Shown here piece after piece: positions 2,143 through 15,592 of a stretch of 15,819 nt of DNA (the stretch's first letter is position 1; every line of letters begins with the position of its first letter). The DNA lies in the NCBI GenBank assembly GCA_023247285.1, contig JAHFGU010000025.1, positions 1-15,819 of the forward strand. The letters are read 5' to 3'. Under the pieces are notes generated by a model that was not told the DNA's origin, ran no database searches, and saw only the letters and a program-made list of their open reading frames with translations. The DNA is from Candidatus Omnitrophota bacterium. Lineage in GTDB: Bacteria > Omnitrophota > Koll11 > Aquiviventales > Aquiviventaceae. Both the position numbers and the translations under genes were made by a program.

Positions 2143-3858
2143 ATGCCAGCCCTGCGGCTTGCGCTTGCGCAACTGAATCTGACCGTTGGCGACCTCGGCG
2201 GCAATGTCCGCCGCATCGAGGAGGCAGCGCTGCGCGCCGAGGCCTGGATGGCAGACGCGCTGGTGGTGCCGGAGCTGGCCATCCCCGGCTATCCGCCGGA
2301 GGATTTGCTGCTGAAGTCCGGATTTGTCTCCGCGAACGAGCAAGCGCTCCGGCGGCTGGCTCCGCGGCTGCGCGGCCTCGTGGCGCTGATCGGCTTCGTG
2401 GAGCGCGGGCCGGCCGGCCGGCTCTACAATGCCGCCGCGGTGGTGGTCGAGGGGCGCGTGAGCGCGGTCTACCGGAAGCAGCACCTGCCGAATTACGGGG
2501 TCTTCGACGAGCGGCGCTATTTCACCCCCGGCGCCGGCCTGCTCATCGTGCGGGTCAATGGGCTGCCGGTGGGGGTGACCATCTGCGAGGACCTGTGGGA
2601 GGCGGCGCCCTGCCGGCTCTTGAGCCAGGCGGGGGCGCGCGCGGTCGTCAACCTCTCCGCCAGCCCGTACCACGCGGGGAAGAGCCGGCAGCGCGAGGCG
2701 CTCTTTTCCAGGCGCGCCAGGGAGCACCGGCTGGCGGTCGCCTACTGCAATCTGGTGGGCGGCCAGGACGAGCTCATCTTTGATGGGGCGAGCGTCGCCT
2801 TCGATAGCCGGGGCCGGTTGCTGGCACGCGGGGCGCAATTCCGCGAAGATCTGGTGCTCGTCGATCTGCCTGCCGCGCCAGAGCGGCAGCTCAGTTCACC
2901 TCGGGCAGGACGCCGGGCAGGGCTGATCTCAACGCGCGCGGTCCCGGTGGCCCGTCAGCTCACCGACCGGGTTCGCGTGCCGCGGGAGCTGGTGAAGCCG
3001 CTGCCGCTCGTGGAAGAGGTGTATGAAGCGCTCTGCCTGGGCGTTCGTGACTATGCGCATAAAAACGGCTTCTCCACGGTCGTGCTCGGGCTCTCAGGCG
3101 GCGTGGACTCCGCGCTCACCGCTTGCATCGCCGCCGATGCGCTGGGCCCAGAGCGCGTCATCGGCCTCGTGATGCCGTCGCGCTACTCGTCAACGCAGAC
3201 GCAGGAGGACGCCCGCCAGGCCGGCCGGGCGCTCGGCATCACGGTCCATACGATCAGCATCGAGCCTGCCTTCAGCGCGTATCTCCGCACGCTCCAGCCC
3301 CAGTTCCACAACCGGCCGGAGGATGTGACCGAGCAGAACCTGCAGGCCAGGATCCGGGGCAACCTGCTCATGGCTCTCTCCAACAAATTTGGCTGGCTCG
3401 TGCTGACCACCGGCAACAAGAGCGAGATGGCGACGGGCTACTGCACCCTGTACGGCGACATGGCCGGCGGGTTCGCGGTCATCAAAGACGTGCCGAAGAC
3501 GCTGGTCTACCGCTTGGCCCGGTTCCGCAACGGCCGCGACCCTGGGACGCCGATCCCGGAACGCATCCTGCGCCGGGCGCCGACCGCGGAACTAGCACCC
3601 CACCAGACCGACCAGGACGTGCTGCCGCCCTACGACACGCTTGACCGGATCCTCAAGGCCTACGTCGAGGAAGACCGCAGCCTCGCGGAGATCCTCTCCG
3701 CCAACCGGCTCAACCCGGAGACGGTCAGGCGCGTCATCCGCATGGTGGACCGGTCCGAATACAAGCGGCGCCAGGGGCCGCCGGGCATCAAGATCACGCC
3801 GAAGGCCTTCGGCAAGGACCGCCGCATGCCGATCACCAACCGGTACCAGCAGTCGTGA
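2143..3858 (+). CDS. nadE: Glutamine-dependent NAD+ synthetase
   Basis: This 571-residue cytoplasmic enzyme performs the last step of NAD+ synthesis: deamido-NAD+ plus ATP plus glutamine-derived ammonia gives NAD+. The N-terminal half is a nitrilase-type glutaminase with its catalytic triad visible: Glu44 (VVPELAI), Lys112 (YRKQHLPNYGVF) and Cys148 (ICEDLW). The C-terminal half is the ATP-pyrophosphatase synthetase domain. It has the P-loop SGGVDS at 318-323, then TGNKSE, the GDMAGGFAVIKDV stretch and a typical tail (KITPKAFGKDRRMPITNRY). The length matches the fused bacterial form. ATG 2143 is the natural start because residue 1 begins the conserved first strand (LRLALAQLN). It overlaps the following regulator gene at TGATG 3856-3860. 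Confidence 0.96.
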   Translation: MPALRLALAQLNLTVGDLGGNVRRIEEAALRAEAWMADALVVPELAIPGYPPEDLLLKSGFVSANEQALRRLAPRLRGLVALIGFVERGPAGRLYNAAAVVVEGRVSAVYRKQHLPNYGVFDERRYFTPGAGLLIVRVNGLPVGVTICEDLWEAAPCRLLSQAGARAVVNLSASPYHAGKSRQREALFSRRAREHRLAVAYCNLVGGQDELIFDGASVAFDSRGRLLARGAQFREDLVLVDLPAAPERQLSSPRAGRRAGLISTRAVPVARQLTDRVRVPRELVKPLPLVEEVYEALCLGVRDYAHKNGFSTVVLGLSGGVDSALTACIAADALGPERVIGLVMPSRYSSTQTQEDARQAGRALGITVHTISIEPAFSAYLRTLQPQFHNRPEDVTEQNLQARIRGNLLMALSNKFGWLVLTTGNKSEMATGYCTLYGDMAGGFAVIKDVPKTLVYRLARFRNGRDPGTPIPERILRRAPTAELAPHQTDQDVLPPYDTLDRILKAYVEEDRSLAEILSANRLNPETVRRVIRMVDRSEYKRRQGPPGIKITPKAFGKDRRMPITNRYQQS

Positions 3859-4547
3859 TGGCGCACCGCGTGCTGCTCCTTACGGATGACTGGCCGGCCA
3901 AGAAGCCGCTAAAGTCCGGGCTGATGGAGCGCGGCTGCGTCGTCGTCCAGGCTGAGACAGCGCCGCTGGCGGGCGACGCGTTTGAGCCGCCGGATCGCGT
4001 GGACGTCATCGTCGCCGACCTCGAGCGCTGCGCGCTGGACCCGGCGACGCTCTGCCGCGCGCTGCGGCGCGAGCGCCCGCTCAAGGAGCTGCCGCTGGTC
4101 CTGCTGATCACGGAGGAGCACTTCGGCCGGGTCGACTTCGCGTGGGGCGTGGATGACTACCTCACCCTGCCGGTGACGCCGCAGCGGCTGGCCGAGCGGC
4201 TCAACTTCCTCATGTGGAAGCTGCAGCGGGCCGTGCCGAAAAACGGGATCTCGCTCGGCGGGCTCGTCATCGATTTTGAGCGCTATGAGGTGCATGTCCA
4301 CGGCGAGCCGGTGGACCTGACCTTCAAGGAGTTCGAGCTGCTCAAGTTCCTCGCCACCCACCCGGGCAAGCCCTTCACGCGCGAGGCGCTGCTGGATAAG
4401 GTGTGGGGCTACGACTACTACGGCGGCACCCGCACGGTGGACGTCCATATCCGCCGCCTGCGCTCCAAGATCGAGCAGGGCGGCACTGCGTACATCGAGA
4501 CCGTCCGGAACGTCGGCTACAAGTTCCTCGCGCCTTCCTCTGTATAG
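3858..4547 (+). CDS. OmpR/PhoB-family response regulator with altered receiver
   Basis: A 229-residue two-domain regulator. The receiver (about 1-120) keeps the acidic pair Asp10-Asp11, the candidate phospho-acceptor Asp54 (VIVADLE) and Thr85 (LLIT). The nearly invariant lysine of the DYLTKP motif is replaced by Leu104 (YLTLPV). The winged-helix output domain (about 131-225) is canonical: LTFKEFELLKFL, then the recognition helix GTRTVDVHIRRLRSKIE and the wing TVRNVGYKF. ATG 3858 overlaps the nadE stop by one base. GTG 3855 is an alternative start that adds one residue. No partner histidine kinase is in the window. Cotranscription with nadE is likely, but a functional link is not shown. The missing lysine suggests altered or phosphorylation-independent signalling (inference). 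Confidence 0.92.
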   Translation: MAHRVLLLTDDWPAKKPLKSGLMERGCVVVQAETAPLAGDAFEPPDRVDVIVADLERCALDPATLCRALRRERPLKELPLVLLITEEHFGRVDFAWGVDDYLTLPVTPQRLAERLNFLMWKLQRAVPKNGISLGGLVIDFERYEVHVHGEPVDLTFKEFELLKFLATHPGKPFTREALLDKVWGYDYYGGTRTVDVHIRRLRSKIEQGGTAYIETVRNVGYKFLAPSSV

Positions 4548-4702: not shown

Positions 4703-4770
4703 CGGTGAGCGCCGGGTGATCCGACAGGCAGGGGAGCCCGGCCATCGTGTTAAGGGGGATGATCGATCGG

Positions 4771-5259
4771 ATGGGATCGCGCGGGATGTCATTGGTGGAG
4801 GTGCTGATCGGCACCGCGGTGCTGGTCACCGGGGGCGGGGCGCTCCTGTTGGGCATGCACTACGCCCTGATCCAATCCGATTACCTGAGCCATGCGCAGA
4901 TCGCCATCCAGGCCGCCCAGGGGGAGCTCGAGCGGCTCACCGGCGAGGATTTCAGCACGCTGGCGACCGGGGGGGCGTACGCCGGCGCCAGGCAAACCGG
5001 CCAGCGCGTGGCCATCAACAACGCGGAGCTGCCTGGCGGGACATTGGGGGTCCAGATCAAGGCCTTCCCCGCCGGCACGCCCTTCTCGACGGCGACGCTC
5101 CTGGATCTCAGCGTGGCCGCCTGCTGGGCCTCGCGCAGCCGGCGGATCGGGGAAGACCGGAACTGCAACGGCGTACTGGACGCGGGGGAAGACGCCAATG
5201 GCAACGGGTGGATCGACTCGCCGGCGACGGTCAGCACCCGGCTCGCCCGGCAGGAGTGA
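4771..5259 (+). CDS. Type IV minor prepilin, PilV/GspI-like, with EF-hand-like loops (copy A, gene 1)
   Basis: A 162-residue prepilin. The five-residue leader MGSRG is followed by MSLVEVLIGTAVLV, giving cleavage after Gly5, a hydrophobic +1 and Glu at +5, as needed for prepilin peptidase and assembly. The hydrophobic helix spans about 6-28. Near the C-terminus two adjacent Ca2+-loop-like segments occur: DRNCNGVLDAGE at 129-140 and DANGNGWID at 141-149. Both fit the DxNxNGxxD pattern. AAGGGGG at 4752-4758 supports ATG 4771; ATG 4759 abuts that site and is less likely. The gene heads an eight-gene run behind the folded leader and is followed one base later by copy A gene 2. The PilV/GspI assignment rests on gene order and length rather than on a diagnostic motif. 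Confidence 0.85.
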   Translation: MGSRGMSLVEVLIGTAVLVTGGGALLLGMHYALIQSDYLSHAQIAIQAAQGELERLTGEDFSTLATGGAYAGARQTGQRVAINNAELPGGTLGVQIKAFPAGTPFSTATLLDLSVAACWASRSRRIGEDRNCNGVLDAGEDANGNGWIDSPATVSTRLARQE

Positions 5260-5260
5260 G

Positions 5261-5731
5261 ATGGGCCGCCAGGGCTTGACCGCGGTGGAGCTGTTGATCG
5301 TCGGCGGCGTGGCGTTCGGGCTGCTGGGGGGGATGATGCTGATGACGGCCGACGCGGGCAACCGGCTCTGGACCAGGATGGATTCGCAGGCGGCCACCAT
5401 GTCGGCGGCGCAGCAGGTGCTCAACCGGATGCGGGCAGATCTCCACGCGGCCTCGCTGGCCGGCGGCCTGACGTGCCAGCCCGGCGACGTGCAGTTTACC
5501 CGGTTCTCCGACGGGGCGGCCATCCGCTATCAGCTCGACGTGGCGGCGGGGATCGTCCGGCGCACGGTGGGCGCGGCGACCCAGGTGCTCGCGGGGAACG
5601 TGTCCGCCATGACCTTTCCCGCCTGCGCCAACGGGGTGGTCCGGGTGTCGCTCACGACGCGGGTCGTGCAGCGGCAGCGGCCGACGGCGACGCACACCCT
5701 GGAGTCGCAGATGAGGATCCAGAACCCATGA
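5261..5731 (+). CDS. Type IV minor prepilin, PilW/GspJ-like (copy A, gene 2)
   Basis: A 156-residue prepilin with leader MGRQG and mature start LTAVELLIVGGVAF. The cleavage glycine is at 5 and Glu at +5 is kept. One N-terminal helix is followed by a mostly beta C-terminal domain with two cysteines (LTCQPGD and FPACANG) that could form a disulfide. ATG 5261 is preceded by AGGAG at 5252-5256, inside the end of gene 1. Its stop overlaps the ATG of gene 3 by four bases (ATGA 5728-5731), indicating coupled translation. The second position in a minor-pilin operon and the LNRMRADLHAAS helix end suit PilW/GspJ, but no decisive signature is present. The equivalent in copy B is at 8618-9058. Confidence 0.82.
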   Translation: MGRQGLTAVELLIVGGVAFGLLGGMMLMTADAGNRLWTRMDSQAATMSAAQQVLNRMRADLHAASLAGGLTCQPGDVQFTRFSDGAAIRYQLDVAAGIVRRTVGAATQVLAGNVSAMTFPACANGVVRVSLTTRVVQRQRPTATHTLESQMRIQNP

Positions 5732-7272
5732 CGCGCGCCAGGCCGCACGACCGCAGCGGCTTTGTCCTGATCAGCAGCTACCTCATGCTGTTCCTGTTCT
5801 TCATCTACTCCAACGCCTTGACGGTGCAGACGATAACCCAGCGCACGGTCGCCGACCGCGCGCGCGAGGATCTCCAGGCGCTCAACCTTGCGCAGGGGGC
5901 GCTGGCGCAGCTCGGCGACAATCTCTACTACTTCGTGAACACCCTCGTGCCCGCCACGATCGCCCCCGGCTCCGGCGACGTGGTCGGCACGTTCCAGTGG
6001 ATCGACGGCCTGGTCGACGGCACCGAGGTGCCTGCGTTCGACGTCCCGGAGGGGGACCGCAACGGCGACGGCCTCATCACCACCGCGGACGGGGACGGCG
6101 TCCGAGACGGCCGGACCGACCATCCCGTGTGCATGTCAGGCCTGCCGACCATCAAGACGGCTGCGGGCGCGGATCCCTGCCCGGCCGCGACTCAGCCCGC
6201 GCAGGCCCCGAGGGCGTGGGTGACGGCGGTGACGTCGACGAATCCCGCCGATCCCTTCGCCCCCAGGCGAGTGACGCTGGAGGCCGAGGCGCGCGTCGGG
6301 GCTGCGACGAAGCGCTTGCGGGCCAACTACGTGTTTGAGCTGGGCAACTCCGACATCTTCCGCTACGCGTACTTCATCAACAACTTCGGGTGGTTTGACT
6401 TGCGGGGGAACTCTTACGTGAGCATCCACGGAGAGGTGCGCTCCAACGCGGACCTGGACTTCAGGATGTCCGGCGGCGCCGGCATCGCGGTCAACGGGGA
6501 TCTCTACGCCTCGCAGAACCCGCAGATCAAGAATCCGAAGACCATGCTGCCGGCCACCGGCACGATCAGCGGCGATGATCCGAGCCAGGCGAACAAGTGG
6601 GATTACCTGAGCGCCTACGGCCACCCGTGGACCCGGCGCCCCATCAAGGGCGTCACCTACCCAGGCCAGCCGAAGATCAACGGGGCGACCCCGGAGCTCC
6701 CCTACGGCGCCGCCTACGACGCCGACTATGTCAATCCGCAGACAGGCCAACAGGACCAGCGCAGGTTCACCGCCCAGCCGACCCACACGATGCCGTTCCT
6801 GGGAGACCTGGGCTACTACGAGAACCTCGCCGCCCAAACCGGCGGGAGGATGACCTATTGGGATGCCGATACCGGAGCGGTCAAGACCGTCGAGGCCTCT
6901 TACAAAGGGCCGGACGGGCAGGCCGGCACGGCGGATGACCAGCAGCCGCTGGTGCTGCTGGGGACGTGGGGCCGGCCCATCATCATGGAGGGCCCGGTCG
7001 TCATCCCGGGCGATGTGCTCATCAGCGGCGTCGTGCTCGGGCGGGGGACCGTCTACAGCGGGCGCAACGTGCACGTCCTGTGGGGGTTGCACAACATGCG
7101 CCGCACCCAATGGAAGCCCATCCGGCGGGACCGGTTCACCGGCGAGATCCGGGCCTCGCAAGGGTGCGACTGGAACGGGGCGCAGCGCCTCGGCACGGTC
7201 TGCACCAACGGCAGCTATTTCACGCCAGCCGAAACCGAACAGGGGCTGGTGCCCCCCGGGTGCATGCAATGA
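5728..7272 (+). CDS. Large PilX/GspK-like pilus-tip protein with beta-rich domain (copy A, gene 3)
   Basis: A 514-residue protein. The start MTRARPHDRSG followed by FVLISSYLMLFLFFIYSNA resembles a prepilin leader and helix with a cleavage glycine at 11. The +5 residue is Ser, not Glu. Loss of Glu5 is also typical of GspK, which sits at the pseudopilus tip. An EF-hand-like loop DRNGDGLITTAD lies at 110-121. A conserved YAYFINNFGWF block is near 213-224. Residues about 402-455 contain short repeats such as GPVVIPGDVLISGVVLGRGTVY that look like beta-helix rungs. This is much longer than ordinary PilX, so a large exposed domain is likely. ATG 5728 overlaps the stop of gene 2. Role in adhesion or tip assembly is inference. 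Confidence 0.75.
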   Translation: MTRARPHDRSGFVLISSYLMLFLFFIYSNALTVQTITQRTVADRAREDLQALNLAQGALAQLGDNLYYFVNTLVPATIAPGSGDVVGTFQWIDGLVDGTEVPAFDVPEGDRNGDGLITTADGDGVRDGRTDHPVCMSGLPTIKTAAGADPCPAATQPAQAPRAWVTAVTSTNPADPFAPRRVTLEAEARVGAATKRLRANYVFELGNSDIFRYAYFINNFGWFDLRGNSYVSIHGEVRSNADLDFRMSGGAGIAVNGDLYASQNPQIKNPKTMLPATGTISGDDPSQANKWDYLSAYGHPWTRRPIKGVTYPGQPKINGATPELPYGAAYDADYVNPQTGQQDQRRFTAQPTHTMPFLGDLGYYENLAAQTGGRMTYWDADTGAVKTVEASYKGPDGQAGTADDQQPLVLLGTWGRPIIMEGPVVIPGDVLISGVVLGRGTVYSGRNVHVLWGLHNMRRTQWKPIRRDRFTGEIRASQGCDWNGAQRLGTVCTNGSYFTPAETEQGLVPPGCMQ

Positions 7273-8054
7273 GCAAACCGCGGGTGTTGCTCGTGGCGAT
7301 CTTCCTGGGGCTCTCCTGCGTCCCCTGCACAGCTTTCGGCGGCTCGTCGTCAGGCAGCAGCAGCGGGGGCGGCGGGGGCGGGGGCTGCGCGTCGGACGAC
7401 GCGGTGTCCTACGGATGGACGGTGCCCGGGGATCCGGTCTACGGGTTCGGCGCGCCTGACCCGAACGCCGACGACCTCGTGGGGTTGGCGGCGAAGGGCA
7501 ACCTCATCATCGGCGATTACACCGATCCGGCCTTCCAGGGCAAGGTGGCGCCGAGGCTCCGGCCCGGCATCGACTCCATCACCCAGCCCTACGTGGTGGA
7601 CCCGACCGACGCGGCCCTGGGCTACGACAGCCGGATCCCGAGCCTCTGCGGGGGCCTGTCCCCATGCTTTGACGGCAACTATGACCAGGCGGACGGGGGC
7701 GCCAAATCGGACGGCGCACCCAGGAAGTTCTACGAGTCGAGCCTGTCCAACGCCGACTTTCAGCGGTACTACAACAAGGCCAGGGCGGGCGATGACTCCT
7801 CCTACGTCAATATCGAGGGCGCGCTCTACACGAACCACGCCATCGCCGGCCTGGTGAAGACCTGGTGGCTGGGGTTTCAAGGGTCGATCGTGGCCAGGGA
7901 CGAGGCGATCGACTTCTATCGCAGCATGTGGATCGATTACGACACCCGCCTGCTGAACGACTCCGGGTCGACGATCACCCTGCCTGCCAGCATGAAGCGG
8001 CCCCGGCTCGTGAGCTGGGAAGAATGCCCGGCGGCCGGCTGCGCAGGAGAATAG
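7269..8054 (+). CDS. Secreted partner protein of the pilin cassette (copy A, gene 4)
   Basis: A 261-residue exported protein of unknown family. The N-terminus MSKPRVLLVAIFLGLSCVPC is a signal sequence; the cysteines at 17 and 20 do not fit a good lipobox, so cleavage by signal peptidase I is more likely. A Ser/Gly linker (about 24-40) follows. Conserved blocks shared with the copy B protein are LAAKGNLIIGDYT, TQPYVVDPTDAALGY, RKFYESSL, ALYTNHAIAGLV, GSIVARDEAIDF and KRPRLVS. The short GN/GS-type rungs resemble those in gene 3, so the two may form one surface assembly. There is no pilin leader. ATG 7269 overlaps the gene 3 stop by four bases. It takes the place that PilY1-type proteins hold in other minor-pilin operons but is far smaller and not related in visible sequence. 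Confidence 0.75.
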   Translation: MSKPRVLLVAIFLGLSCVPCTAFGGSSSGSSSGGGGGGGCASDDAVSYGWTVPGDPVYGFGAPDPNADDLVGLAAKGNLIIGDYTDPAFQGKVAPRLRPGIDSITQPYVVDPTDAALGYDSRIPSLCGGLSPCFDGNYDQADGGAKSDGAPRKFYESSLSNADFQRYYNKARAGDDSSYVNIEGALYTNHAIAGLVKTWWLGFQGSIVARDEAIDFYRSMWIDYDTRLLNDSGSTITLPASMKRPRLVSWEECPAAGCAGE

Positions 8055-8066
8055 GAGCGGACCGGG

Positions 8067-8621
8067 ATACAGCGTGCGGGCTTGACCCTCGTGGAACTGC
8101 TCATTGGTGTTGCGCTCCTGCTGATCGGGGGCGGCGCCCTCCTGCTCGGGATGAACACCGCCATGATCCACACCGACTACCTGACCCAGCTCCAGGTCAT
8201 GGCCAACGCGGCCCAGGGCCGGCTCGAGGAGCTGGCCGCCGCCCCCTTCGATACGCTGTGGACCGGGGCTGAGTACGCGCAGGCCCGCCAGCCGAACACC
8301 GGCCTGTGCATGGGCCTCAACGAGGACCGCAACTGCAACAACCAGCTCGATGCCGGCGAGGACTTGAACGGCAACAACCGGCTCGATGAGCCGATAGCCG
8401 GCGCGCGGCTGAGCGTGCAGGTCCGCAGCGCCGATGTCCGCAATCCGGCCAACCCGGCGCTGCTCGACCTCTACGTCTCCGCGTGCTGGGCCTCTCGGCG
8501 CCGCGCCATCGGCGAGGATCGCAACTGCAACGGCCGGCTGGATCCAGGGGAGGACGCCAACACCAACACGTTGATGGACGGCCCGGTGGTCTTGGTCACG
8601 CGAGTGGGCCGTCCCGAATGA
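8067..8621 (+). CDS. Type IV minor prepilin, PilV/GspI-like, apparent ATA start (copy B, gene 1)
   Basis: A 184-residue prepilin paralogous to 4771-5259. The mature start LTLVELLIGVALLLIGGG has Glu at +5. In frame between the preceding stop (8052-8054) and this segment there is no ATG, GTG or TTG before the cleavage glycine. The only plausible start is ATA at 8067-8069, giving (M)QRAG and LTLVE, the same five-residue leader spacing as copy A. AGGAG at 8053-8057 lies nine bases upstream of it. A TTG at 8082 would remove the leader and is unlikely. The protein carries two Ca2+-loop pairs instead of one: EDRNCNNQLDAGEDLNGNN (about 86-104) and EDRNCNGRLDPGEDANTNT (about 150-168). It may be an ATG-to-ATA mutation, a sequence error, or a true rare start. 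Confidence 0.78.
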   Translation: MQRAGLTLVELLIGVALLLIGGGALLLGMNTAMIHTDYLTQLQVMANAAQGRLEELAAAPFDTLWTGAEYAQARQPNTGLCMGLNEDRNCNNQLDAGEDLNGNNRLDEPIAGARLSVQVRSADVRNPANPALLDLYVSACWASRRRAIGEDRNCNGRLDPGEDANTNTLMDGPVVLVTRVGRPE

Positions 8622-9058
8622 GGCGCGCGCCGGGCTTCACCTTCGTGGAGATGCTCATCGTGACGGTGGTCCTGATGCTCATTGGGGGGATGGCCATCGT
8701 GATGGCGCAGACCGGGCCCCGGGTGTGGACGCACACCTCGAGCCGGCTGGCCAGTATCACCAACGGCCAGCGCGCGCTGGACCGGGTGATTGGCGATCTG
8801 CGGGCCGCCTCCTCGGCGAGCGTCAACTGCGCGCCGCCCGCCCCCAACGAGCTCACCTTCACGCAGCTCGGCGCACCGGTTTCCTACGACTTGAACGGCA
8901 CGAACCTACTCAAGAACGGCCGGGTGATAGCCGGGGATCTCTCGACGTTCCGCTGCACCCGGTTCGCGGACGGGCATGTCCGGATCGAGGTCGGGGTGCG
9001 AGTGGACGCCTCCACGGTCCGCACGCTGACCTCGCAGGTGTGGGTGCGGCAGCCATGA
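8618..9058 (+). CDS. Type IV minor prepilin, PilW/GspJ-like (copy B, gene 2)
   Basis: A 146-residue prepilin with leader MRRAPG and mature start FTFVEMLIVTVVLMLIGG. The cleavage glycine is at 6 and Glu at +5 is kept. The helix leads into RALDRVIGDLRAAS, matching RMRADLHAAS in copy A gene 2, then a beta-rich domain with two cysteines (VNCAPP and FRCTRF). ATG 8618 overlaps the stop of gene 1 (ATGA), and its own stop overlaps ATG 9055 in the same way. The chain of four-base overlaps indicates coupled translation through genes 1 to 3. Without its own nearby ribosome site, it depends on gene 1 being translated, which is indirect evidence that the oddly started gene 1 is expressed. Confidence 0.83.
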   Translation: MRRAPGFTFVEMLIVTVVLMLIGGMAIVMAQTGPRVWTHTSSRLASITNGQRALDRVIGDLRAASSASVNCAPPAPNELTFTQLGAPVSYDLNGTNLLKNGRVIAGDLSTFRCTRFADGHVRIEVGVRVDASTVRTLTSQVWVRQP

Positions 9059-10722
9059 GCGCGCGCCGGACCAAGGGATTCGCGTTGATCGGCAGCTACC
9101 TCCTGCTCTCCGCCCTGTTTCTCTACTCCAACGCGCTGACCATGACCACGATCGTCCAGCAGGCCGCGGCCGACCGCATGCGCGAGACCTTCGAGGCGCG
9201 CAACCTCGCCACCGCCGCCCTCGAGACCCTGCGGGAAGACCTCAACCGCTTCCTCACGGTGGAGATGTACGCCTGGACGGCGCAGGGCAACGCGATCCAG
9301 GCGCTCCAGTGGCTGGATGACCTCGGCACGGGCAAGGAAAATCCCATCTTCGATCTGCCGAAGACCGACGCGAACGGCGATGGCGCGGTGGACTGGGCCG
9401 ACGGCACCGATCAGATCCGCGACGGGACGGCGGACAACCCCACGTGCCTGACCCTGCCGGTGACCTCGTATAGCAAAGGGACCGCGCTGGCCCCGCCCAA
9501 CGCCACGGCGACGTTCAAGAGCCCCAACGGCAAGAACCCGAACGACCAGGCGATCCAGGCCACGGCCGAGAGCGGCCCAACGTCCGGGACGCCGGCCTGC
9601 CGGGCCGCGGGCCTCTCGCCGGAGGCGCCCCGCGCGTGGCTGGTCAGCGTCGAGCCCGTGAACAAGAACGACCCCCTGTCGCCGCGGCGCGTCACGCTGG
9701 ACGCCGAGGCGAAGGCCGGCGGCGTCACCAAGCGGATGGAAGCCGTCTACGAGATCGATCTGGGCATGTCCGACGTGTTCAAGTACGCGTACTTCATTAA
9801 CAACTACGGGTGGTTCGACACCGGCGATGCGTACATGCGCATTAATGGGGACGTGCGGGCCAACGGCGACCTGCGGTTGACGGTCTGGGGCGGCAATTAC
9901 ACCATGACGGACGATTACAACGATATCCACGGGAACTTCTACGCCTCTGAAAATCCCGAGCTGATCAATCCGCAGACCGGCCAGAAGGCCCAGGGTTTCA
10001 TCAGCGGCGATGCGGGTCAGTATTCGACCGAAAAGGCGTACTGGGAAGTCAAGGGCGGCCACTCGCGCCCCTTAAAAAATCTCGTGTTTCCAGGGCAGCC
10101 GGCCCCGGGCGGCACGACCAAGTCCATCCCTTGGGGCTGGGATCCCTACCACAATCCGGCCAAAGGCGGCGCCATTGACCAGCAGCGCTTTGAGCGGCAG
10201 CCCACCCAGCCCATGCCCTATCTGGGCGACCTGGACTACTACAAGACGCTGGCCAAGCAGCGCAAGGGCGAGCTCAAGGGTCTTGTTTGGGTCGAGGGGG
10301 TCGGATACCGTCCGAAGGTGGTGACGGTTGACGGCATCTATGCAGGGGTGGACGGGGTCTTAGGCACGGCGGATGATAAGAATCCTTTGGTCATCCTCGG
10401 CGGCTACGCCAATCCGATCGAGATCACCGGGCCGGTGGTCGTGCCGGGTGATGTGATCATCAAAGGCGTGGTCAAGGGCCGGGGAACGGTCTATGCGGGC
10501 CGCAACGTGCATGTTGTCGGCAACCTCACCTACGCCAGTGACACGTGGGGCAGCGCCTCCTTTGTGGCGGCGCCCCGCTGGGAGTCGCTCCAGCGCAACA
10601 CGGTGACCGGGGAAGTCCGGGAGGTGTGGTGCTGCCCCGGGCGCGGCAGCTCGATTGGCATTGTCTGCAAGAGCGGGACGTTTTACCCGTATGGCCAAAC
10701 CCCGCCGGCCGGGTGCCTCTGA
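9055..10722 (+). CDS. Large PilX/GspK-like pilus-tip protein with beta-rich domain (copy B, gene 3)
   Basis: A 555-residue paralogue of 5728-7272. Leader-like MSARRTKG is followed by FALIGSYLLLSALFLYSNAL; +5 is Gly, so Glu5 is again missing. The EF-hand-like loop DANGDGAVDWAD is at 105-116. Shared blocks include YAYFINNYGWFD, NPQTGQ, QPTQPMPYLGDLDYYKTLA and the rung-like GPVVVPGDVIIKGVVKGRGT near 440-490. It is about 40 residues longer than copy A, partly from an insertion after the Ca2+ loop (about 137-180, Asn/Ala/Thr-rich). Four cysteines cluster near the C-terminus (EVWCCPGRGS, IVCKSG, PAGCL), a pattern that could stabilise the exposed end by disulfides. The start is fixed by ATGA overlap with gene 2. 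The PilX/GspK label is by position, missing Glu5 and architecture. Confidence 0.75.
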   Translation: MSARRTKGFALIGSYLLLSALFLYSNALTMTTIVQQAAADRMRETFEARNLATAALETLREDLNRFLTVEMYAWTAQGNAIQALQWLDDLGTGKENPIFDLPKTDANGDGAVDWADGTDQIRDGTADNPTCLTLPVTSYSKGTALAPPNATATFKSPNGKNPNDQAIQATAESGPTSGTPACRAAGLSPEAPRAWLVSVEPVNKNDPLSPRRVTLDAEAKAGGVTKRMEAVYEIDLGMSDVFKYAYFINNYGWFDTGDAYMRINGDVRANGDLRLTVWGGNYTMTDDYNDIHGNFYASENPELINPQTGQKAQGFISGDAGQYSTEKAYWEVKGGHSRPLKNLVFPGQPAPGGTTKSIPWGWDPYHNPAKGGAIDQQRFERQPTQPMPYLGDLDYYKTLAKQRKGELKGLVWVEGVGYRPKVVTVDGIYAGVDGVLGTADDKNPLVILGGYANPIEITGPVVVPGDVIIKGVVKGRGTVYAGRNVHVVGNLTYASDTWGSASFVAAPRWESLQRNTVTGEVREVWCCPGRGSSIGIVCKSGTFYPYGQTPPAGCL

Positions 10723-10731
10723 GGAGGAACG

Positions 10732-11535
10732 ATGCGCGCCTTGCGGCTTGCTGCGTTGGTGTTGAGCCTGATGGCGGCCATGCCGGCGGCGACATTCGCC
10801 GCTGGCGGCACCGGAGGGAATGACGGCACGAGCAGCTACGTCCCGCCCCCGCCCCCGAACGACACGAACTGGGAACCGTATGGCTTTGCAGCCGGGGAAG
10901 ATCCGGACTACCGCTTCGTCTACCCCGACAACAGCAAGACTGACATACTGGGTTTGGCGGCTAAGGGCAATATTGTCCTGGGCGATTACACGCAGCCCGA
11001 GTTCCAGAACTACGTGGCGCCAAAGCTGAAGCCGGGGAAGTGGTCGGTGACCCAGCCCTATATGATCGATCCCACGGATGCTAGCCTGGGGTACTCCAGC
11101 TACGTCCTGAACGGCAAGCAGTATTTCAACGGCGACTACACCCAGGTCGACGAGCAAGGCAACGGCAAAAAGCTGGATGGCAGCCCGCGCCGGTTCTACG
11201 AGTCCACGCTGCCGGATTGGCAATACAGCGGCCTCGTGGAGTCGTGGATGAACAATCCGAATCACGGCGAAGGCTCCGGCAATATCCAGGCCGTGCTCTA
11301 TACCAACCATGCGATTGCCGGGCTGGTGAAGGCTTACGATCTAGGCATCTTCGGCGCCATCGTGGCGCGCGACGACGCGTTCATGTACGGCAAGCGGCTG
11401 TGGCTCGACCACGATATCCGCATCATGGAGGAAGGCTCGCAGATCGATTTGAATCTGCCGGTGTCCATCAAGCGGCCGCGCCTGGTTTCGCTGACCGACT
11501 GCGGCGCTAGCGGCTGCCCCAGCAGCCAGAAATAA
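10732..11535 (+). CDS. Secreted partner protein of the pilin cassette (copy B, gene 4)
   Basis: A 267-residue exported protein and paralogue of 7269-8054. A signal peptide (MRALRLAALVLSLMAAMPAA, cut near TFAA) is followed by a Gly-rich then Pro-rich linker (VPPPPPND). Blocks common to both copies are LGLAAKGNIVLGDYT, TQPYMIDPTDASLGY, FNGDYTQ, RRFYEST, AVLYTNHAIAGLVK, GAIVARDDAF and IKRPRLVS. Unlike copy A it does not overlap gene 3. It starts nine bases after that stop with its own strong ribosome site GGAGGA just upstream of ATG 10732. It is the last gene of the eight-gene run. Family and activity are unknown; a surface or tip role with gene 3 is inferred from linkage and shared duplication. 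Confidence 0.75.
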   Translation: MRALRLAALVLSLMAAMPAATFAAGGTGGNDGTSSYVPPPPPNDTNWEPYGFAAGEDPDYRFVYPDNSKTDILGLAAKGNIVLGDYTQPEFQNYVAPKLKPGKWSVTQPYMIDPTDASLGYSSYVLNGKQYFNGDYTQVDEQGNGKKLDGSPRRFYESTLPDWQYSGLVESWMNNPNHGEGSGNIQAVLYTNHAIAGLVKAYDLGIFGAIVARDDAFMYGKRLWLDHDIRIMEEGSQIDLNLPVSIKRPRLVSLTDCGASGCPSSQK

Positions 11536-11552: not shown

Positions 11553-11606
11553 GTCACCTCGATTTAACCTCCCCGATATCTCGCTGTAACATCCCTCTTC
11601 TAGGCT
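11553..11606 (+). promoter_or_regulatory. Four 11-bp phased operator repeats upstream of the winged-helix gene
   Basis: Four consecutive 11-bp units occur: GTCACCTCGAT (11553), TTAACCTCCCC (11564), GATATCTCGCT (11575) and GTAACATCCCT (11586). Position 4 (A) and positions 7-8 (TC) are invariant. Direct repeats with 11-bp period are the classic binding layout for PhoB/OmpR-type winged-helix proteins. A weak -10-like hexamer TAGGCT begins at 11601, 15 bases after the start of the last unit, and no -35 is needed in such activator-dependent promoters. The start site would lie near 11613, almost at ATG 11616. Confidence 0.65.
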
Positions 11607-11615
11607 AGGCATGCC

Positions 11616-11957
11616 ATGGCCCAGCCGCTGTCGCTTCAGTGCGGCGCGCTCACGATTGATCTGGAGCGCTACCGCGTGCTGCTGCGCGGGGAGCCTCTCC
11701 TGCTCACCTACCGGGAGTACGCTTTGCTCGCCTATCTGGCCGGCCGCCTAGGCCAGGTCGTGCATAAGCGGCAGCTCCTGGAGGAAGGGCTGGGCCGGCA
11801 TGATCCCGGCGGGCTGCGGATGGTGGATGAGCACATCCGCCATCTTCGGGGGCTGATCGAGCGCGAGAGCGGCTGCCAGATTGACGAGGTCGGGCCCAGC
11901 GGCTACCGGTTCACGTGCCGCGCGCCGGCATGTAACATCGAATTAACATCCGCGTGA
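11616..11957 (+). CDS. Stand-alone OmpR/PhoB-type winged-helix regulator without receiver
   Basis: A 113-residue DNA-binding protein made only of the Trans_reg_C fold. It starts with CGALTIDLERYRVLLRGEPLLLTYREYALLAYLAG, runs through the helix VVHKRQLLEEGLG, the recognition helix region GLRMVDEHIRHLRGLIE (about 67-83) and the wing EVGPSGYRF. These line up with the output domain of the regulator at 3858-4547. No receiver is encoded upstream: the pilin unit ends at 11535 and the gap is non-coding. It is therefore not a broken two-domain gene unless the break is old. ATG 11616 has only a weak AGG at 11607-11609. Arrays of 11-bp repeats lie both before this gene and over its last codons before the porin gene, so self-regulation and porin control are likely. 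Signal and partner are unknown. Confidence 0.85.
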   Translation: MAQPLSLQCGALTIDLERYRVLLRGEPLLLTYREYALLAYLAGRLGQVVHKRQLLEEGLGRHDPGGLRMVDEHIRHLRGLIERESGCQIDEVGPSGYRFTCRAPACNIELTSA

Positions 11958-11985
11958 TATGGGCGTAACGGTGGAATCGTATTGT
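11932..11985 (+). promoter_or_regulatory. Four 11-bp phased operator repeats upstream of the porin gene
   Basis: The units are GTAACATCGAA (11932), TTAACATCCGC (11943), GTGATATGGGC (11954) and GTAACGGTGGA (11965). The first two are near-identical and the consensus (G/T)TAACATC matches the array at 11553. TATTGT at 11980-11985 is a -10-like hexamer 15 bases after the start of the last unit, the same offset as in the other array. The array overlaps the last codons of the winged-helix gene. The layout resembles a Pho box, but the activating signal is not shown. Confidence 0.68.
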
Positions 11986-12026: not shown

Positions 12027-13328
12027 ATGAAGTGGCGTATGGCACTAGCGCTGAGCGTGTTGGCGGCGGGAACCCCGGTGTGGGCTGATACCGAGGACGA
12101 CGCTTTGAAGGCGGAGATCCAGGTCCTGAAGGACCGACTCAGCCGGCTGGAAGGCCAAGTGGCCACCCGGCAGTCGGCCGGGATGACCGGCATCTCCAGC
12201 ATCGGGGAGAAAGCCGGCCCGGCGCTCGTCGAGTTGCCCAGCGGATTGCAGGGGCTGGGTATCAGCGGGTTTGTGGATCTGTCTTACATTTATAACTTTG
12301 CGGAGCCGGATGCCGGGGCCAGCCGCACCAACCGCGGCCGGGTCTTCGATACCCAGCCGAATGGCTTCGTGCCGCAGGCGGCAGAAATCGTGTTCGAAAA
12401 GCCGGAAACCGACACCATGCCGATCGGCTTCCGGACCGACCTGTATTTCGGGGATGACGCGGAGCTGACCCACTCCTCGGGGCTGTTCGCGAGCACGGAT
12501 GCAGTCGACCTCCAGCAGGCCTACGTCACCGCGAAAGCCCCGATCGGGGACGGGCTGGACTTCAAGCTCGGCAAATTCGTGACGCTGCTGGGCGCGGAAG
12601 TGATTGAGAGCCCGGCCAACTGGAACTTCTCGCGCTCGTATATGTTCGGCTACGCGATTCCGTTCACGCACACGGGTGTGTTGGCGACCTATCCGCTCGG
12701 GGAATGGGGCTCGGTGACCGGCGGGGTCGTGAACGGCTGGGACATGGTGGACGACACCAACATCGCCAAGACCCTCATCGGCAACCTCACGCTCACCCCA
12801 GTGGGAGGCGTCACGCTGGCCTTCAACGGGATCACCGGCGCGGAGCACACGGGAGAAAACCGCAACGACCGGACGGTGTTCGATTTCGTGGGCACGTGGA
12901 AGGCGCTCGACCAGCTCACCGTCATGGCCAACTATGACTACGGCCATGAGAGCGGGGTCGAGCCCGTCGTCGGCACGGCAGGCGGCGGCACCGGTTTCGA
13001 CACCGGCAACTGGCAGGGGCTGGCCCTCTACGGCAAGTATGATCTGACCCCGACGTGGTCGCTGGCCGGCCGGTGGGAGTGGTTCGATGACAAGGCCGGG
13101 GTGCGCACCGGGCTGGGCACCGTCGATTTGGCGACCGGCGCGCTCGGCCCGAATGACGTGGACTATTTCGAGTGGACGCTCACCAGCCAGTGGGCCTTGT
13201 ACGAGCACGTGCTCGCCCGGCTCGAGTACCGCCACGACATGGCAGGCGAGCGGGTCTTCTTCCGGGGCGCTGGCGAGTTCACCAACCGCTACGACACCAT
13301 CGCGGCGGAGCTGATCTATCACTTTTAA
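12027..13328 (+). CDS. BBP2-type (OmpL-like) outer-membrane porin
   Basis: A 433-residue porin. A signal peptide (MKWRMALALSVLAAGTPVWA, cleaved before DTEDD) is followed by a short coiled coil at about 21-48 (LKAEIQVLKDRLSRLEGQV), probably a periplasmic trimerisation or wall-contact segment. The barrel follows, from ISGFVDLSYIYNF to a terminal IAAELIYHF. The stretch VIESPANWNFSRSYMFGYAI and PFTHTGVLATYPLG is characteristic of putative beta-barrel porin-2 proteins. ATG 12027 is chosen because AGGAGGG at 12016-12022 precedes it and it begins a clean signal peptide; an upstream in-frame start at 11982 would put 15 polar residues ahead of that. It lies behind an 11-bp repeat array and before the ammonium operon. 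The permeant solute is unknown. Confidence 0.88.
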   Translation: MKWRMALALSVLAAGTPVWADTEDDALKAEIQVLKDRLSRLEGQVATRQSAGMTGISSIGEKAGPALVELPSGLQGLGISGFVDLSYIYNFAEPDAGASRTNRGRVFDTQPNGFVPQAAEIVFEKPETDTMPIGFRTDLYFGDDAELTHSSGLFASTDAVDLQQAYVTAKAPIGDGLDFKLGKFVTLLGAEVIESPANWNFSRSYMFGYAIPFTHTGVLATYPLGEWGSVTGGVVNGWDMVDDTNIAKTLIGNLTLTPVGGVTLAFNGITGAEHTGENRNDRTVFDFVGTWKALDQLTVMANYDYGHESGVEPVVGTAGGGTGFDTGNWQGLALYGKYDLTPTWSLAGRWEWFDDKAGVRTGLGTVDLATGALGPNDVDYFEWTLTSQWALYEHVLARLEYRHDMAGERVFFRGAGEFTNRYDTIAAELIYHF

Positions 13329-13339
13329 AGACGCGGGAT

Positions 13340-13413
13340 AAAAAGTGCCAACGCAAAATGTGCCAGACACTTTTTCAGTGCGCGAGCCCGAGGAAGGAAA
13401 AAGTGTCAGGCAC
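13340..13413 (+). repeat. REP-like palindromic element
   Basis: GTGCCAGACACTTTTT at 13360-13375 and AAAAAGTGTCAGGCAC at 13398-13413 are inverted copies with one mismatch. A partial third arm, AAAAAGTGCCA, sits at 13340-13350. AT-rich ends around a GTGCCnGACAC core are typical of dispersed intergenic palindromes mobilised by RAYT-type transposases. It lies directly after the porin stop and may also act as a transcription or mRNA-stability barrier. No transposase is in the window. Confidence 0.6.
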
Positions 13414-13429
13414 CTAAGGTTGTTGTGAG

Positions 13430-13565: not shown

Positions 13566-13733
13566 ATGGGCACAACGGCAACATCAGGATGGGCGGTACT
13601 GTGGTTCTTGGTCGGATTTACCGTGTTGGGAACCGCCGCGATCGGCGGCGGAGCGCTGGGACTCCTGGGCGGGGTTGCCATCATGGCATGGGCGTCCGTG
13701 CTCTTTCGCGCCGCACGCGCAAAGGAGGAATAA
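13566..13733 (+). CDS. Small two-helix membrane protein 1, ammonium operon
   Basis: A 55-residue protein with two hydrophobic segments: about 9-27 (WAVLWFLVGFTVLGTAAIG) and about 29-47 (GALGLLGGVAIMAWASVLF), then a basic/acidic tail FRAARAKEE. Further upstream in-frame starts exist at 13479 but would add a polar, arginine-rich stretch read through the hairpin region. ATG 13566, with AGGAG at 13551-13555 and AGGG at 13557-13560, is preferred. The stop TAA is directly followed by the ATG of the next small gene. Position upstream of amtB in a tight operon suggests a role in ammonium transport or its control, but I do not recognise a family. Confidence 0.7.
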   Translation: MGTTATSGWAVLWFLVGFTVLGTAAIGGGALGLLGGVAIMAWASVLFRAARAKEE

Positions 13734-13916
13734 ATGCGACCGATCGGCGTCTTGTGTCTTGCGGGAGGGTGGGCGATCGCCGTGGGCGGGTTGTTCTTGA
13801 CCTCCGCCACCACCGGCCGGCTTCTGATCGCGTGTCTGGGCATCGGGGTCTCGCTCTATGGGAGCCTCGGGATTCTCAACGGCTACTACCTTGAGCGCGC
13901 CATATGGAAGAAGTAA
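13734..13916 (+). CDS. Small two-helix membrane protein 2, ammonium operon
   Basis: A 60-residue protein with two hydrophobic segments, about 3-23 (PIGVLCLAGGWAIAVGGLFL) and about 29-49 (RLLIACLGIGVSLYGSLGIL), ending NGYYLERAIWKK. It has one of the strongest ribosome sites in the window: AAGGAGG at 13722-13728, five bases before ATG 13734, lying within the last codons of the previous gene. The stop is 20 bases before the amtB start, so the three genes are almost certainly cotranscribed. It is not visibly a copy of the 55-residue neighbour, although the two have a similar helix-helix layout. Function unknown; an accessory subunit for AmtB or the inner membrane is possible. Confidence 0.75.
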   Translation: MRPIGVLCLAGGWAIAVGGLFLTSATTGRLLIACLGIGVSLYGSLGILNGYYLERAIWKK

Positions 13917-13936
13917 CTCACCAGCAGGAGAGTCGC

Positions 13937-15592
13937 ATGATGCAGAAGACGCGGTGTCTCCTCCTGATCGCGCTCGGGGCGATCGGAGTGCTCAGCTACG
14001 CCACGCCGGCGAAGGCGGCGCTCAGCGCGAACGACGTCATCAGCGACATCGCCGCGCCGAGCACCGACGAGATCGGGTCGAAGGGCGATCCGGGCGCTGA
14101 GAAATACGGCAGCGTCAATGACGTCACGATGACCGACGCGAAGAAGGGCGTGACCTTGAGCGACCTGGCCAATCAGGCGGGGCAGAACAAGGTGGCGATC
14201 AACTTCGTGTGGACCTTGGTCACCGGCTTCCTGGTCATGTTCATGCAGGCCGGGTTCGCGATTGTGGAAACCGGTCTGATTCGCGCCAAGAGCGCCAACC
14301 ATACCATGATGATGAACTTCATGGTGTATGGGCTGGGCTTGTTTGCGTATTGGGTGTGCGGGTTCGCCATCCAGATGGGCGGCGCAGCACCCATTGCCAA
14401 CCTCGGCGGCGTGTTTCCCTTGAACCACGAACATATCGTGACCCTCTTCGGCAAGCCCTGGGGGCTGTTTGGGACGAAAGGGTTTTTCCTGAGCGGGGCG
14501 ACGTATGACGTCGGGGTGATGGTGTTGTTCTTGTTCCAGATGGTGTTTATGGACACCGCGACCACGATCGTGACCGGCTCCTGCGCGGAGCGCTGGAAGT
14601 ATTCCGCGTTCTGCGTCTCGACGATCTGCTTAGGGGCCCTCACCTACCCGCTCTTTGGCAACTGGGCGTGGGGCGGCGGCTGGCTCTCGCAGTTAGGGGC
14701 AAACTTCGGGCTCGGCCACGGCTATTGTGATTTTGCCGGCTCCGGGGTGGTGCACGCGGTGGGCGGATTGACGGGCCTGGCGGTGGCGATGCAGCTTGGT
14801 CCGCGCCTCGGCAAGTACAATCGCGATGGCAGCCCGAACGTCATTCCCGGGCACGACCTGTCGTACGTGCTCTTGGGCTGTTTCATTCTCGCGTTCGGCT
14901 GGTTCGGGTTCAACCCCGGCAGCACGCTGGGCGCGTCGGGCAATGGCTGTCTGCGCATCGGCAGCGTTGCCGTCAACACCATGCTGGCCGGATGCACCGG
15001 GTCGTTTGCTGCGCTGCTCTACATGTGGATCCGCTACGGCAAGCCCGATGCCTCCATGGCAGGCAACGGCCTGCTCGCCGGCCTGGTGGCGATTACCGCT
15101 CCGAGTGGATTTGTGAACACGCTCAGCGCCTGTATCATCGGTTGGGTGGCTGGGATCCTGGTGTGTCTTGGGGTCGAGTTCTTTGACCGCGTCGCGAAGG
15201 TCGATGATCCGGTGGGCGCCATTTCCGTCCACGGCCTGAACGGGCTGTGGGGCGTCCTCTCCGTCGGCCTCTTCGCGGATGGCCGCAGCAACTACGGCGG
15301 GAGCTGGAACGGCGTCGCCGGCTCGGTGACCGGGCTCTTCTACGGCGATGCAGGCCAGTTGGTGGCCCAGCTTATCGGGATTGCCACGCTGGTCGGCGTC
15401 ATCTTCACCTTGTCCTACCTGTTCAACTGGCTCGTGGACGTCGTGGTCGGCCAGCGGGTGGGGGCAAAGGCGGAGCTGGCTGGGCTGGATATTCCGGAAA
15501 TGGGCGCCTTGTGCTACCCGGACTTTCAGCTGAAGGCGGCAGACTACAACATCGGCGCCGGCGCTTCATCCCCGGCGATGGCCAAACACTGA
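13937..15592 (+). CDS. amtB: Ammonium transporter AmtB with exported N-terminal extension
   Basis: A 551-residue Amt/Rh-family channel of the inner membrane that carries ammonium inward. A signal peptide (MMQKTRCLLLIALGAIGVLS to PAKA) is followed by about 60 polar residues (28-87) that are longer than usual and should lie in the periplasm. The channel starts at FVWTLVTGFLVMFMQAGFAI and has about 11 helices. The pore twin histidines are His273 (GVVHAVGG) and His432 (SVHGLNG). Asp265 lies eight residues before His273, as in E. coli AmtB. The cytoplasmic tail contains GLDIPEMG, the motif by which Amt tails contact P-II proteins. ATG 13937 has AGGAG at 13926-13930; ATG 13904 would overlap the previous gene and put 11 polar residues ahead of the signal peptide. 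A P-II gene follows, as expected. Confidence 0.96.
   Translation: MMQKTRCLLLIALGAIGVLSYATPAKAALSANDVISDIAAPSTDEIGSKGDPGAEKYGSVNDVTMTDAKKGVTLSDLANQAGQNKVAINFVWTLVTGFLVMFMQAGFAIVETGLIRAKSANHTMMMNFMVYGLGLFAYWVCGFAIQMGGAAPIANLGGVFPLNHEHIVTLFGKPWGLFGTKGFFLSGATYDVGVMVLFLFQMVFMDTATTIVTGSCAERWKYSAFCVSTICLGALTYPLFGNWAWGGGWLSQLGANFGLGHGYCDFAGSGVVHAVGGLTGLAVAMQLGPRLGKYNRDGSPNVIPGHDLSYVLLGCFILAFGWFGFNPGSTLGASGNGCLRIGSVAVNTMLAGCTGSFAALLYMWIRYGKPDASMAGNGLLAGLVAITAPSGFVNTLSACIIGWVAGILVCLGVEFFDRVAKVDDPVGAISVHGLNGLWGVLSVGLFADGRSNYGGSWNGVAGSVTGLFYGDAGQLVAQLIGIATLVGVIFTLSYLFNWLVDVVVGQRVGAKAELAGLDIPEMGALCYPDFQLKAADYNIGAGASSPAMAKH

Follow-up and report, generated by a model that had tools for sequence, protein, structure and literature searches.

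The window analysed here is a 15,819-nucleotide stretch of DNA from a Candidatus Omnitrophota bacterium (contig JAHFGU010000025.1). Its forward strand encodes a glutamine-type NAD synthase, NadE (2143..3858; Pfam and NCBIfam), directly upstream of a 230-residue GlnR-like regulator of the OmpR family, RR230 (3855..4547), which has a pilin-like gene as its other neighbor. Further along the same strand lie a stand-alone winged-helix protein of 113 residues (11616..11957), which matches Pfam PF00486 (Trans_reg_C) only and has no receiver, a BBP2 outer-membrane porin of 433 residues (12027..13328; PF07642, E 1.3e-81), a small ORF of 55 residues (13566..13733; no Pfam match, 69% identity over 55 residues in locus L006) and an ammonium transporter, Amt (13904..15592; PF00909, E 2.2e-102). 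Where an organism is named among the 120 of 414 porin matches listed, it is Candidatus Omnitrophica or Omnitrophota. The 55-residue ORF appears membrane-like. Stretches of the type AAAAAGTGYC...GGCACC, partly inverted, are found past the porin gene (13339-13415), and a different, similar-looking inverted stretch (GGGTCCGGGTCTCATTTTT) precedes the winged-helix gene in L002. Pilin-like genes that form two related sets, with a weak N-methylation motif in one set or member, fill 4747-11535 between RR230 and the winged-helix gene's upstream repeats, and a block of this kind is similarly placed in L002 and L004.

Four direct units of 11 bp precede the winged-helix gene (array 1, 11553..11596, + strand; in order GTCACCTCGAT, TTAACCTCCCC, GATATCTCGCT and GTAACATCCCT) and four more precede the porin gene (array 2, 11932..11975, + strand; GTAACATCGAA, TTAACATCCGC, GTGATATGGGC and GTAACGGTGGA), just as an initial annotation of this DNA had described them, and their resemblance to OmpR/PhoB-type operators, also pointed out there, is real. 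The 113-residue gene, with its stop at 11957, reaches at its 3' end into array 2. The arrays follow the patterns GTCAC-n6-TTAAC-n6-GATAT-n6-GTAAC and GTAAC-n6-TTAAC-n6-GTGAT-n6-GTAAC, respectively. The shared (G/T)TAACATC core that had been proposed thus describes some of the units, but unit 3 is GATAT or GTGAT and the first unit of array 1 is GTCAC. Both arrays are followed by a −10-like hexamer, TAGGCT (11601..11606, + strand) and TATTGT (11980..11985, + strand), and the 15-base spacing reported for it is correct when counted from the start of unit 4 rather than from its end, which is four bases from the hexamer. No TTGACA-like −35 precedes either −10; the sequences at that place are ATCTCG for array 1 and ATATGG for array 2. 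Across 30 arrays (15 loci with two each, the window included), 25 have a TAnnnT or CAnnnT hexamer at offset 15, four have it at offset 14 and one has none, and the A at position 4 of the 5-mer is present in 30, 29, 26 and 30 arrays for units 1 to 4. The −10 of array 1 and the start codon of the winged-helix gene are separated by nine bases only (11601-11616), so that the winged-helix mRNA should be leaderless or nearly so; a similarly short gap also seems to be present in L001, L003 and L006, and not in L002 and L005.

We scored the window with a matrix built from 28 arrays at 14 loci of other genomes, leaving the window itself out. Array 1 scored 46.8 bits and array 2 scored 48.0 bits, compared to 1.0 bits for the best window site overlapping neither array and to a mean maximum of 1.6 bits, with a highest value of 18.8, in 300 random windows. 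Array 2 read on the opposite strand still scored 20.0 bits, because GTTAC is the reverse complement of GTAAC. A simple (G/T)TAAC x 4 score gave 16/20 for array 1 and 18/20 for array 2, with a maximum of 15, attained by five windows, among 100 first-order Markov windows. The arrays were not returned as a repeat family by a general repeat search of the window, since their units are too degenerate.

Conservation of the locus and its arrays

Scanning genome contigs for relatives of the 113-residue protein gave 14 loci, all in genomes belonging to the order of G004. Thirteen are titled Omnitrophota or Omnitrophica and one (L011, SBAZ01000142.1) Planctomycetales bacterium; the genome of the latter belongs to the order of the Omnitrophota genomes too, and its title is probably a misnomer. 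The 113-residue gene lies between two arrays at all 14 loci, although array 1 of L011 is below the threshold of one scan and was picked up in two others, one of them by pattern. All 14 loci continue with a BBP2 porin and 13 of them with Amt, since the L014 contig stops within the porin gene, and in L013 a P-II-like ORF (P-II by eye) and a 91-residue ORF are located between array 2 and the porin. A pattern derived from the arrays, with up to three mismatches allowed, matched 34 times in the 14 genomes, while the reversed pattern gave no match in the same genomes. The profile R1 recovered all eight expected arrays in four genomes that carry the 113-residue gene and were outside its training (E 4e-11 to 0.0015). 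The initial annotation had looked to conservation upstream of orthologues of both genes as the test of its proposal, and on both counts, at the loci and among the expected arrays, the repeats are conserved.

Within the order, the stand-alone protein was found in 18 of 28 genomes (E<=2.4e-36, with the next class from 2.2e-22), Amt in 19 and RR230 orthologues, with 56-77% identity, in 23. Arrays at E<=0.01 were present in 19 of the 23 RR230-bearing genomes and in none of the five others; these genomes are incomplete drafts, in which absences weigh little. The profile search found no array in G160, G163, G164 and G166, which have RR230, and Amt is present without an array in G160. An array immediately upstream is also lacking for five further Amt genes (two of G011, one of G007, one of G171 and the second Amt of the G008 operon), and another Amt of G171 has a weak array only. 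One array, G003:C92:11924, was found by pattern and missed by R1 at E<=1.

The distance between RR230 and array 1 varies. The end of the RR230 match lies 25, 36, 3 and 95 bases from array 1 in L008, L010, L013 and L005, respectively, and the two overlap by 8 in L009; the distance is 2.1, 3.8, 3.9 and 7.0 kb in L012, L002, L004 and the window. NadE also neighbors RR230 in L002, L004, L005, L010, L012 and L013.

Genes located behind the arrays

Arrays also occur at other places in these genomes. In G171, an array just downstream of RR230 is followed by Amt and P-II, with neither a winged-helix gene nor a porin, and in G014 an array just after RR230 is followed by genes for a GAF-ANTAR protein and a P-II-like protein. 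Other arrays precede genes for a GAF-GAF-ANTAR protein, a P-II-like protein and a nitrite/sulphite reductase with a Rieske domain (G003), a GAF-ANTAR protein (G005), a NirB-like protein and a Rieske protein (G008), a ThiS-family protein and MoaE (also G008), and P-II-like, P-II and MoaE proteins (G162). A second, weaker site in G008 lies before a type III glutamine synthetase. GAF-ANTAR proteins lie behind arrays at L031:1558-2328, L044:3985-5199 and L046:2545-3318; in G006:C36 the contig ends 74 codons into the gene, there is no Pfam match, and the GAF-ANTAR label was given by eye. The presence of GAF-ANTAR genes behind the same operator suggests a second, RNA-level step of nitrogen control.

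We also searched 145 genomes of the phylum with R1 and obtained 11 matches outside the training set at E<=0.01, with about 1.5 nominally expected by chance, the E-values being rough. Seven of these matches, all outside the order, are located before nitrogen operons, either of the Amt type (porin-Amt in G127; porin-Amt-P-II in G073 and G079) or of the glutamine synthetase type (G079, G033, G133 and G127). One lies before a Porin_5 gene and a PstS-like protein in G101. The remaining three (G071, G073:C13 and G145) have no evident operon behind them and are probably chance matches. Within the order, the match G007:C211:4287 (E 0.0015) is at a contig end. Among the weaker matches (E 0.01-1) that we inspected, namely the second site of G008:C236, G171:C183, the second site of G073:C21, G008:C139, G007:C184, G014:C63 and G014:C62, no clear nitrogen link was seen for G008:C139 and G007:C184, and the stretches in G014:C63 and G014:C62 contain no matrix score of 8 or more. 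Since arrays precede amt, P-II, glutamine synthetase, nitrite reductase, GAF-ANTAR and molybdopterin genes, the predicted regulon is one of nitrogen assimilation. The earlier description of a porin regulon was therefore too narrow: the porin itself precedes an ammonium transporter, and arrays also stand before the glutamine synthetase, P-II and nitrite reductase genes.

RR230 and the stand-alone winged-helix protein

A search of the PDB placed RR230 nearest to 8hih, 8hig and 8hml, whose titles refer to an initiation complex with Mycobacterium tuberculosis GlnR and to DNA-bound GlnR from Saccharopolyspora erythraea (6.5e-41 for GlnR versus 4.5e-20 for PhoB, 1gxp). In the DNA-binding domain, 59 of 96 residues are identical to those of 8hih. 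The recognition helix GGTRTVDVH(I/V)RRLR and the wing VRNVGYK are common to RR230 and GlnR, with small changes in a few orthologues, and differ in 20 other regulators that come from these genomes and from two outside ones. A tree separated the RR230 and GlnR rows from the 20 other regulators (98/92) and grouped GlnR with the relatives from outside the order (94/91), in both cases on few columns, with an unsettled bootstrap and two GlnR rows only. The receiver of RR230 is degenerate: it gave no Response_reg match by Pfam in the window, and across 23 orthologues the Asp is kept in all 23 while the canonical Lys is replaced by Leu in 22 and by Trp in one. Pfam GlnR_1st barely passes for the window RR230 (28.1 bits against a cut-off of 27) and gave no match for the G004 orthologue, and in the seven genomes that exceed the cut-off the matching frames are longer, at about 310-330 residues; we rejected this model as a marker, since it is not diagnostic here.

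In the passages of PMC10704036 that bear on it, GlnR is an orphan regulator whose Asp is not phosphorylated, and its sites are 5-mers repeated every 11 bp in a-b-a-b order, with (t/g)TAAC in M. smegmatis and an irreplaceable A at position 4. The same passages describe a four-site promoter occupied by four GlnR DNA-binding domains head to tail. The 30 arrays likewise have 5-mers of the GTnAC or GnAAC type every 11 bp, with A at position 4 as counted above.

The 113-residue protein has 443 homologues in a search that admits 0.55-1.75 times the query length. Those among the 120 matches listed are 103-131 residues long and highly conserved, so that this is a family rather than a broken regulator. 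Its predicted fold is an OmpR-type winged helix (pLDDT 84.4) with YycF and GlnR domains as top structure matches, and by sequence its nearest solved relatives are GlnR DNA-binding domains. Its branch in the regulator tree is long (2.34), so the tree does not fix its parent. Compared to RR230 and GlnR, the short protein has Glu in place of Val in 15 of 15 genome rows, His (12 rows), Ser (two) or Tyr (one) in place of Arg, Leu (14) or Phe (one) in place of Trp, and Gly (10), Pro (three), Ala (one) or Ser (one) in place of the wing Arg. A further alignment used 31 rows selected among the 443 homologues, and in it Arg occurs at the helix position in one row and in the wing in one row. We take the changed Trp and wing Arg positions to be equivalent to a Trp and a wing Arg of M. 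tuberculosis PhoP. As described in part of PMC4832192, this Trp of PhoP contacts phosphate and the wing Arg enters the minor groove. Judged by its sequence, the short protein is a GlnR-like winged helix with no receiver, from a family that has lost residues involved in touching DNA in its relatives.

Readings of the arrays and related systems

That the repeats might be a product of chance or a by-product of coding constraint deserves almost no credence. Array 2 of the window does overlap a coding 3' end, and some homologues terminate in its translation (e.g., CNKELT). However, array 1 is intergenic in the window, array 2 sits past the stop codon in L004 and L010 and is still conserved there, and unrelated nitrogen genes are preceded by the same array. 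A chance origin was rejected because the matrix scores of both arrays far exceed those of random windows. We also consider it quite improbable that the arrays are Pho boxes of a PhoB-type regulator, with a phosphate-responsive porin and transporter. Pho boxes are likewise 11-bp direct repeats according to the portion of PMC4415409 on this subject, RR230 scores best against PhoB among the NCBIfam models (far under the cut-off of that model), and the similar site in G101 comes after a canonical regulator and a histidine kinase, before the Porin_5 gene and the PstS-like protein (L213:2874-5287 and L269). Against this, the genes behind arrays in the window's order are those for Amt, P-II, glutamine synthetase III, nitrite reductase, GAF-ANTAR and molybdopterin proteins, and RR230, unlike the G101 regulator with its full Response_reg domain (6.5e-31), has no match to that domain. 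No Pst or phosphate-uptake gene occurs among the annotated array matches of the order, the one case being G101, outside it. The target genes and the contrast with G101 thus weaken a phosphate reading; from the genes behind arrays in other genomes, the original suggestion of phosphate- or nitrogen-linked control can be kept as to nutrients and nitrogen and dropped as to phosphate. The G101 site is likely a phosphate form of the same layout, in which a nutrient porin and transporter lie behind 11-bp repeats.

The initial annotation had suggested a regulon that controls its own adjacent regulator; that this 113-residue protein is the main activator of both arrays and of its own gene we regard as unlikely. 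In favor of it, the gene is flanked by the arrays at 14 of 14 loci, the protein is a winged helix, and the effector domain of PhoB binds DNA constitutively without its receiver, as an excerpt of PMC4415409 has it. On the other hand, the array adjoins a GlnR-like regulator in G171 and in the outside-order genomes G127 and G073, where the Amt operon follows the array without an intervening winged-helix gene, and the Val, Arg, Trp and wing Arg of RR230 and GlnR are changed in all 15 rows of the short protein. A self-regulated 113-residue activator is weakened by the G171 arrangement and the changed contact residues, and RR230 is the better candidate because the G171 array adjoins it without a 113-residue gene and because it keeps the DNA-contacting residues. 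RR230, rather than the 113-residue protein, is thus the likely binder of the arrays. The short protein is best read as feedback on the regulon, since its gene lies behind array 1 and before array 2, and the behavior of the PhoB effector domain implies that a receiver-less relative could occupy or disturb the arrays. Feedback on the array promoters is its most likely role, probably as an antagonist, although the sign is a guess. More tentatively, and as one possibility that we do not favor strongly, it could be a dedicated GlnR-like subunit with no receiver, which the regulon itself induces and which joins or disturbs the four-unit arrays while lacking the usual contacts. It would then be a built-in brake or timer for nitrogen uptake and, for an OmpR-type regulator, a natural dominant-negative that most of the order has retained (18 of 28 genomes). 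Such a relative between the arrays raises the question of how activator arrays are switched off.

Our preferred reading, which we hold with reasonable confidence, is that the arrays are RR230-bound activator sites of a nitrogen-assimilation regulon on which the short protein feeds back, probably as an antagonist. When nitrogen is scarce, RR230, a GlnR-type protein with a degenerate receiver, would bind the four 11-bp units head to tail and recruit RNA polymerase in place of a −35, a role that we infer because only four bases separate unit 4 from the −10 and no TTGACA-like −35 is present. From array 2, this would turn on the porin, the small ORF and the ammonium transporter, and from array 1 the stand-alone winged-helix protein, which would in turn act back on the array promoters, probably as an antagonist. 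The arrays with their geometry and conservation, the genes behind them and the family relationships are seen in the sequence itself, from which RR230 binding, activation, the nitrogen signal and the antagonism are inferred. Several observations speak against this reading, namely the four genomes with RR230 and no array, the Amt genes with a weak array or none, the G101 site before phosphate-type genes, the three phylum matches with no evident operon, the marginal GlnR_1st match, and the 7 kb between RR230 and array 1 in the window.

The closest known system is the actinobacterial GlnR regulon (amtB, glnA, nitrate/nitrite genes), which has in common with the present one a degenerate receiver that keeps its Asp, a recognition helix and wing that are nearly identical, four-unit sites of 5-mers with an 11-bp period, and ammonium transport, glutamine synthetase and nitrite reductase targets. 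It differs in that the regulon described here belongs to another phylum, has an outer-membrane porin at the head of the Amt operon, uses one fixed four-unit layout 15 bases from the −10, and includes GAF-ANTAR targets and a conserved receiver-less relative between two arrays. These likenesses suggest that GlnR-type control by four head-to-tail sites is not confined to Actinobacteria, and for an uncultured Omnitrophota group a single matrix now suffices to read a concrete nitrogen regulon off the genome. Within one library of open-licence papers, which most subscription papers lie outside, we found no report of GlnR in Omnitrophota, of nitrogen regulation in Omnitrophota or of an OmpR-type GlnR in Chloroflexi.

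Other OmpR-family systems offer partial parallels. The boxes of Bacillus subtilis PhoP and WalR/YycF have TTAACA- or TGTAA-like units about 11 bp apart, with other targets and a kinase partner, and motif likeness to them alone does not decide the matter. The Pho regulon (Escherichia coli PhoB and Streptomyces PhoP) is similar in its 11-bp direct repeats, its tandem winged-helix binding and, as in G101, a porin and transporter behind the box, but there the box core is CTGTCAT or GTTCACC (per the pertinent part of PMC4415409) and a canonical receiver with a partner kinase acts on phosphate targets. The atypical OmpR-family proteins ChxR and HP1043, as far as excerpts on them go, are phosphorylation-independent and bind DNA repeats, but are full-length proteins with a receiver, whereas the 113-residue protein has none.
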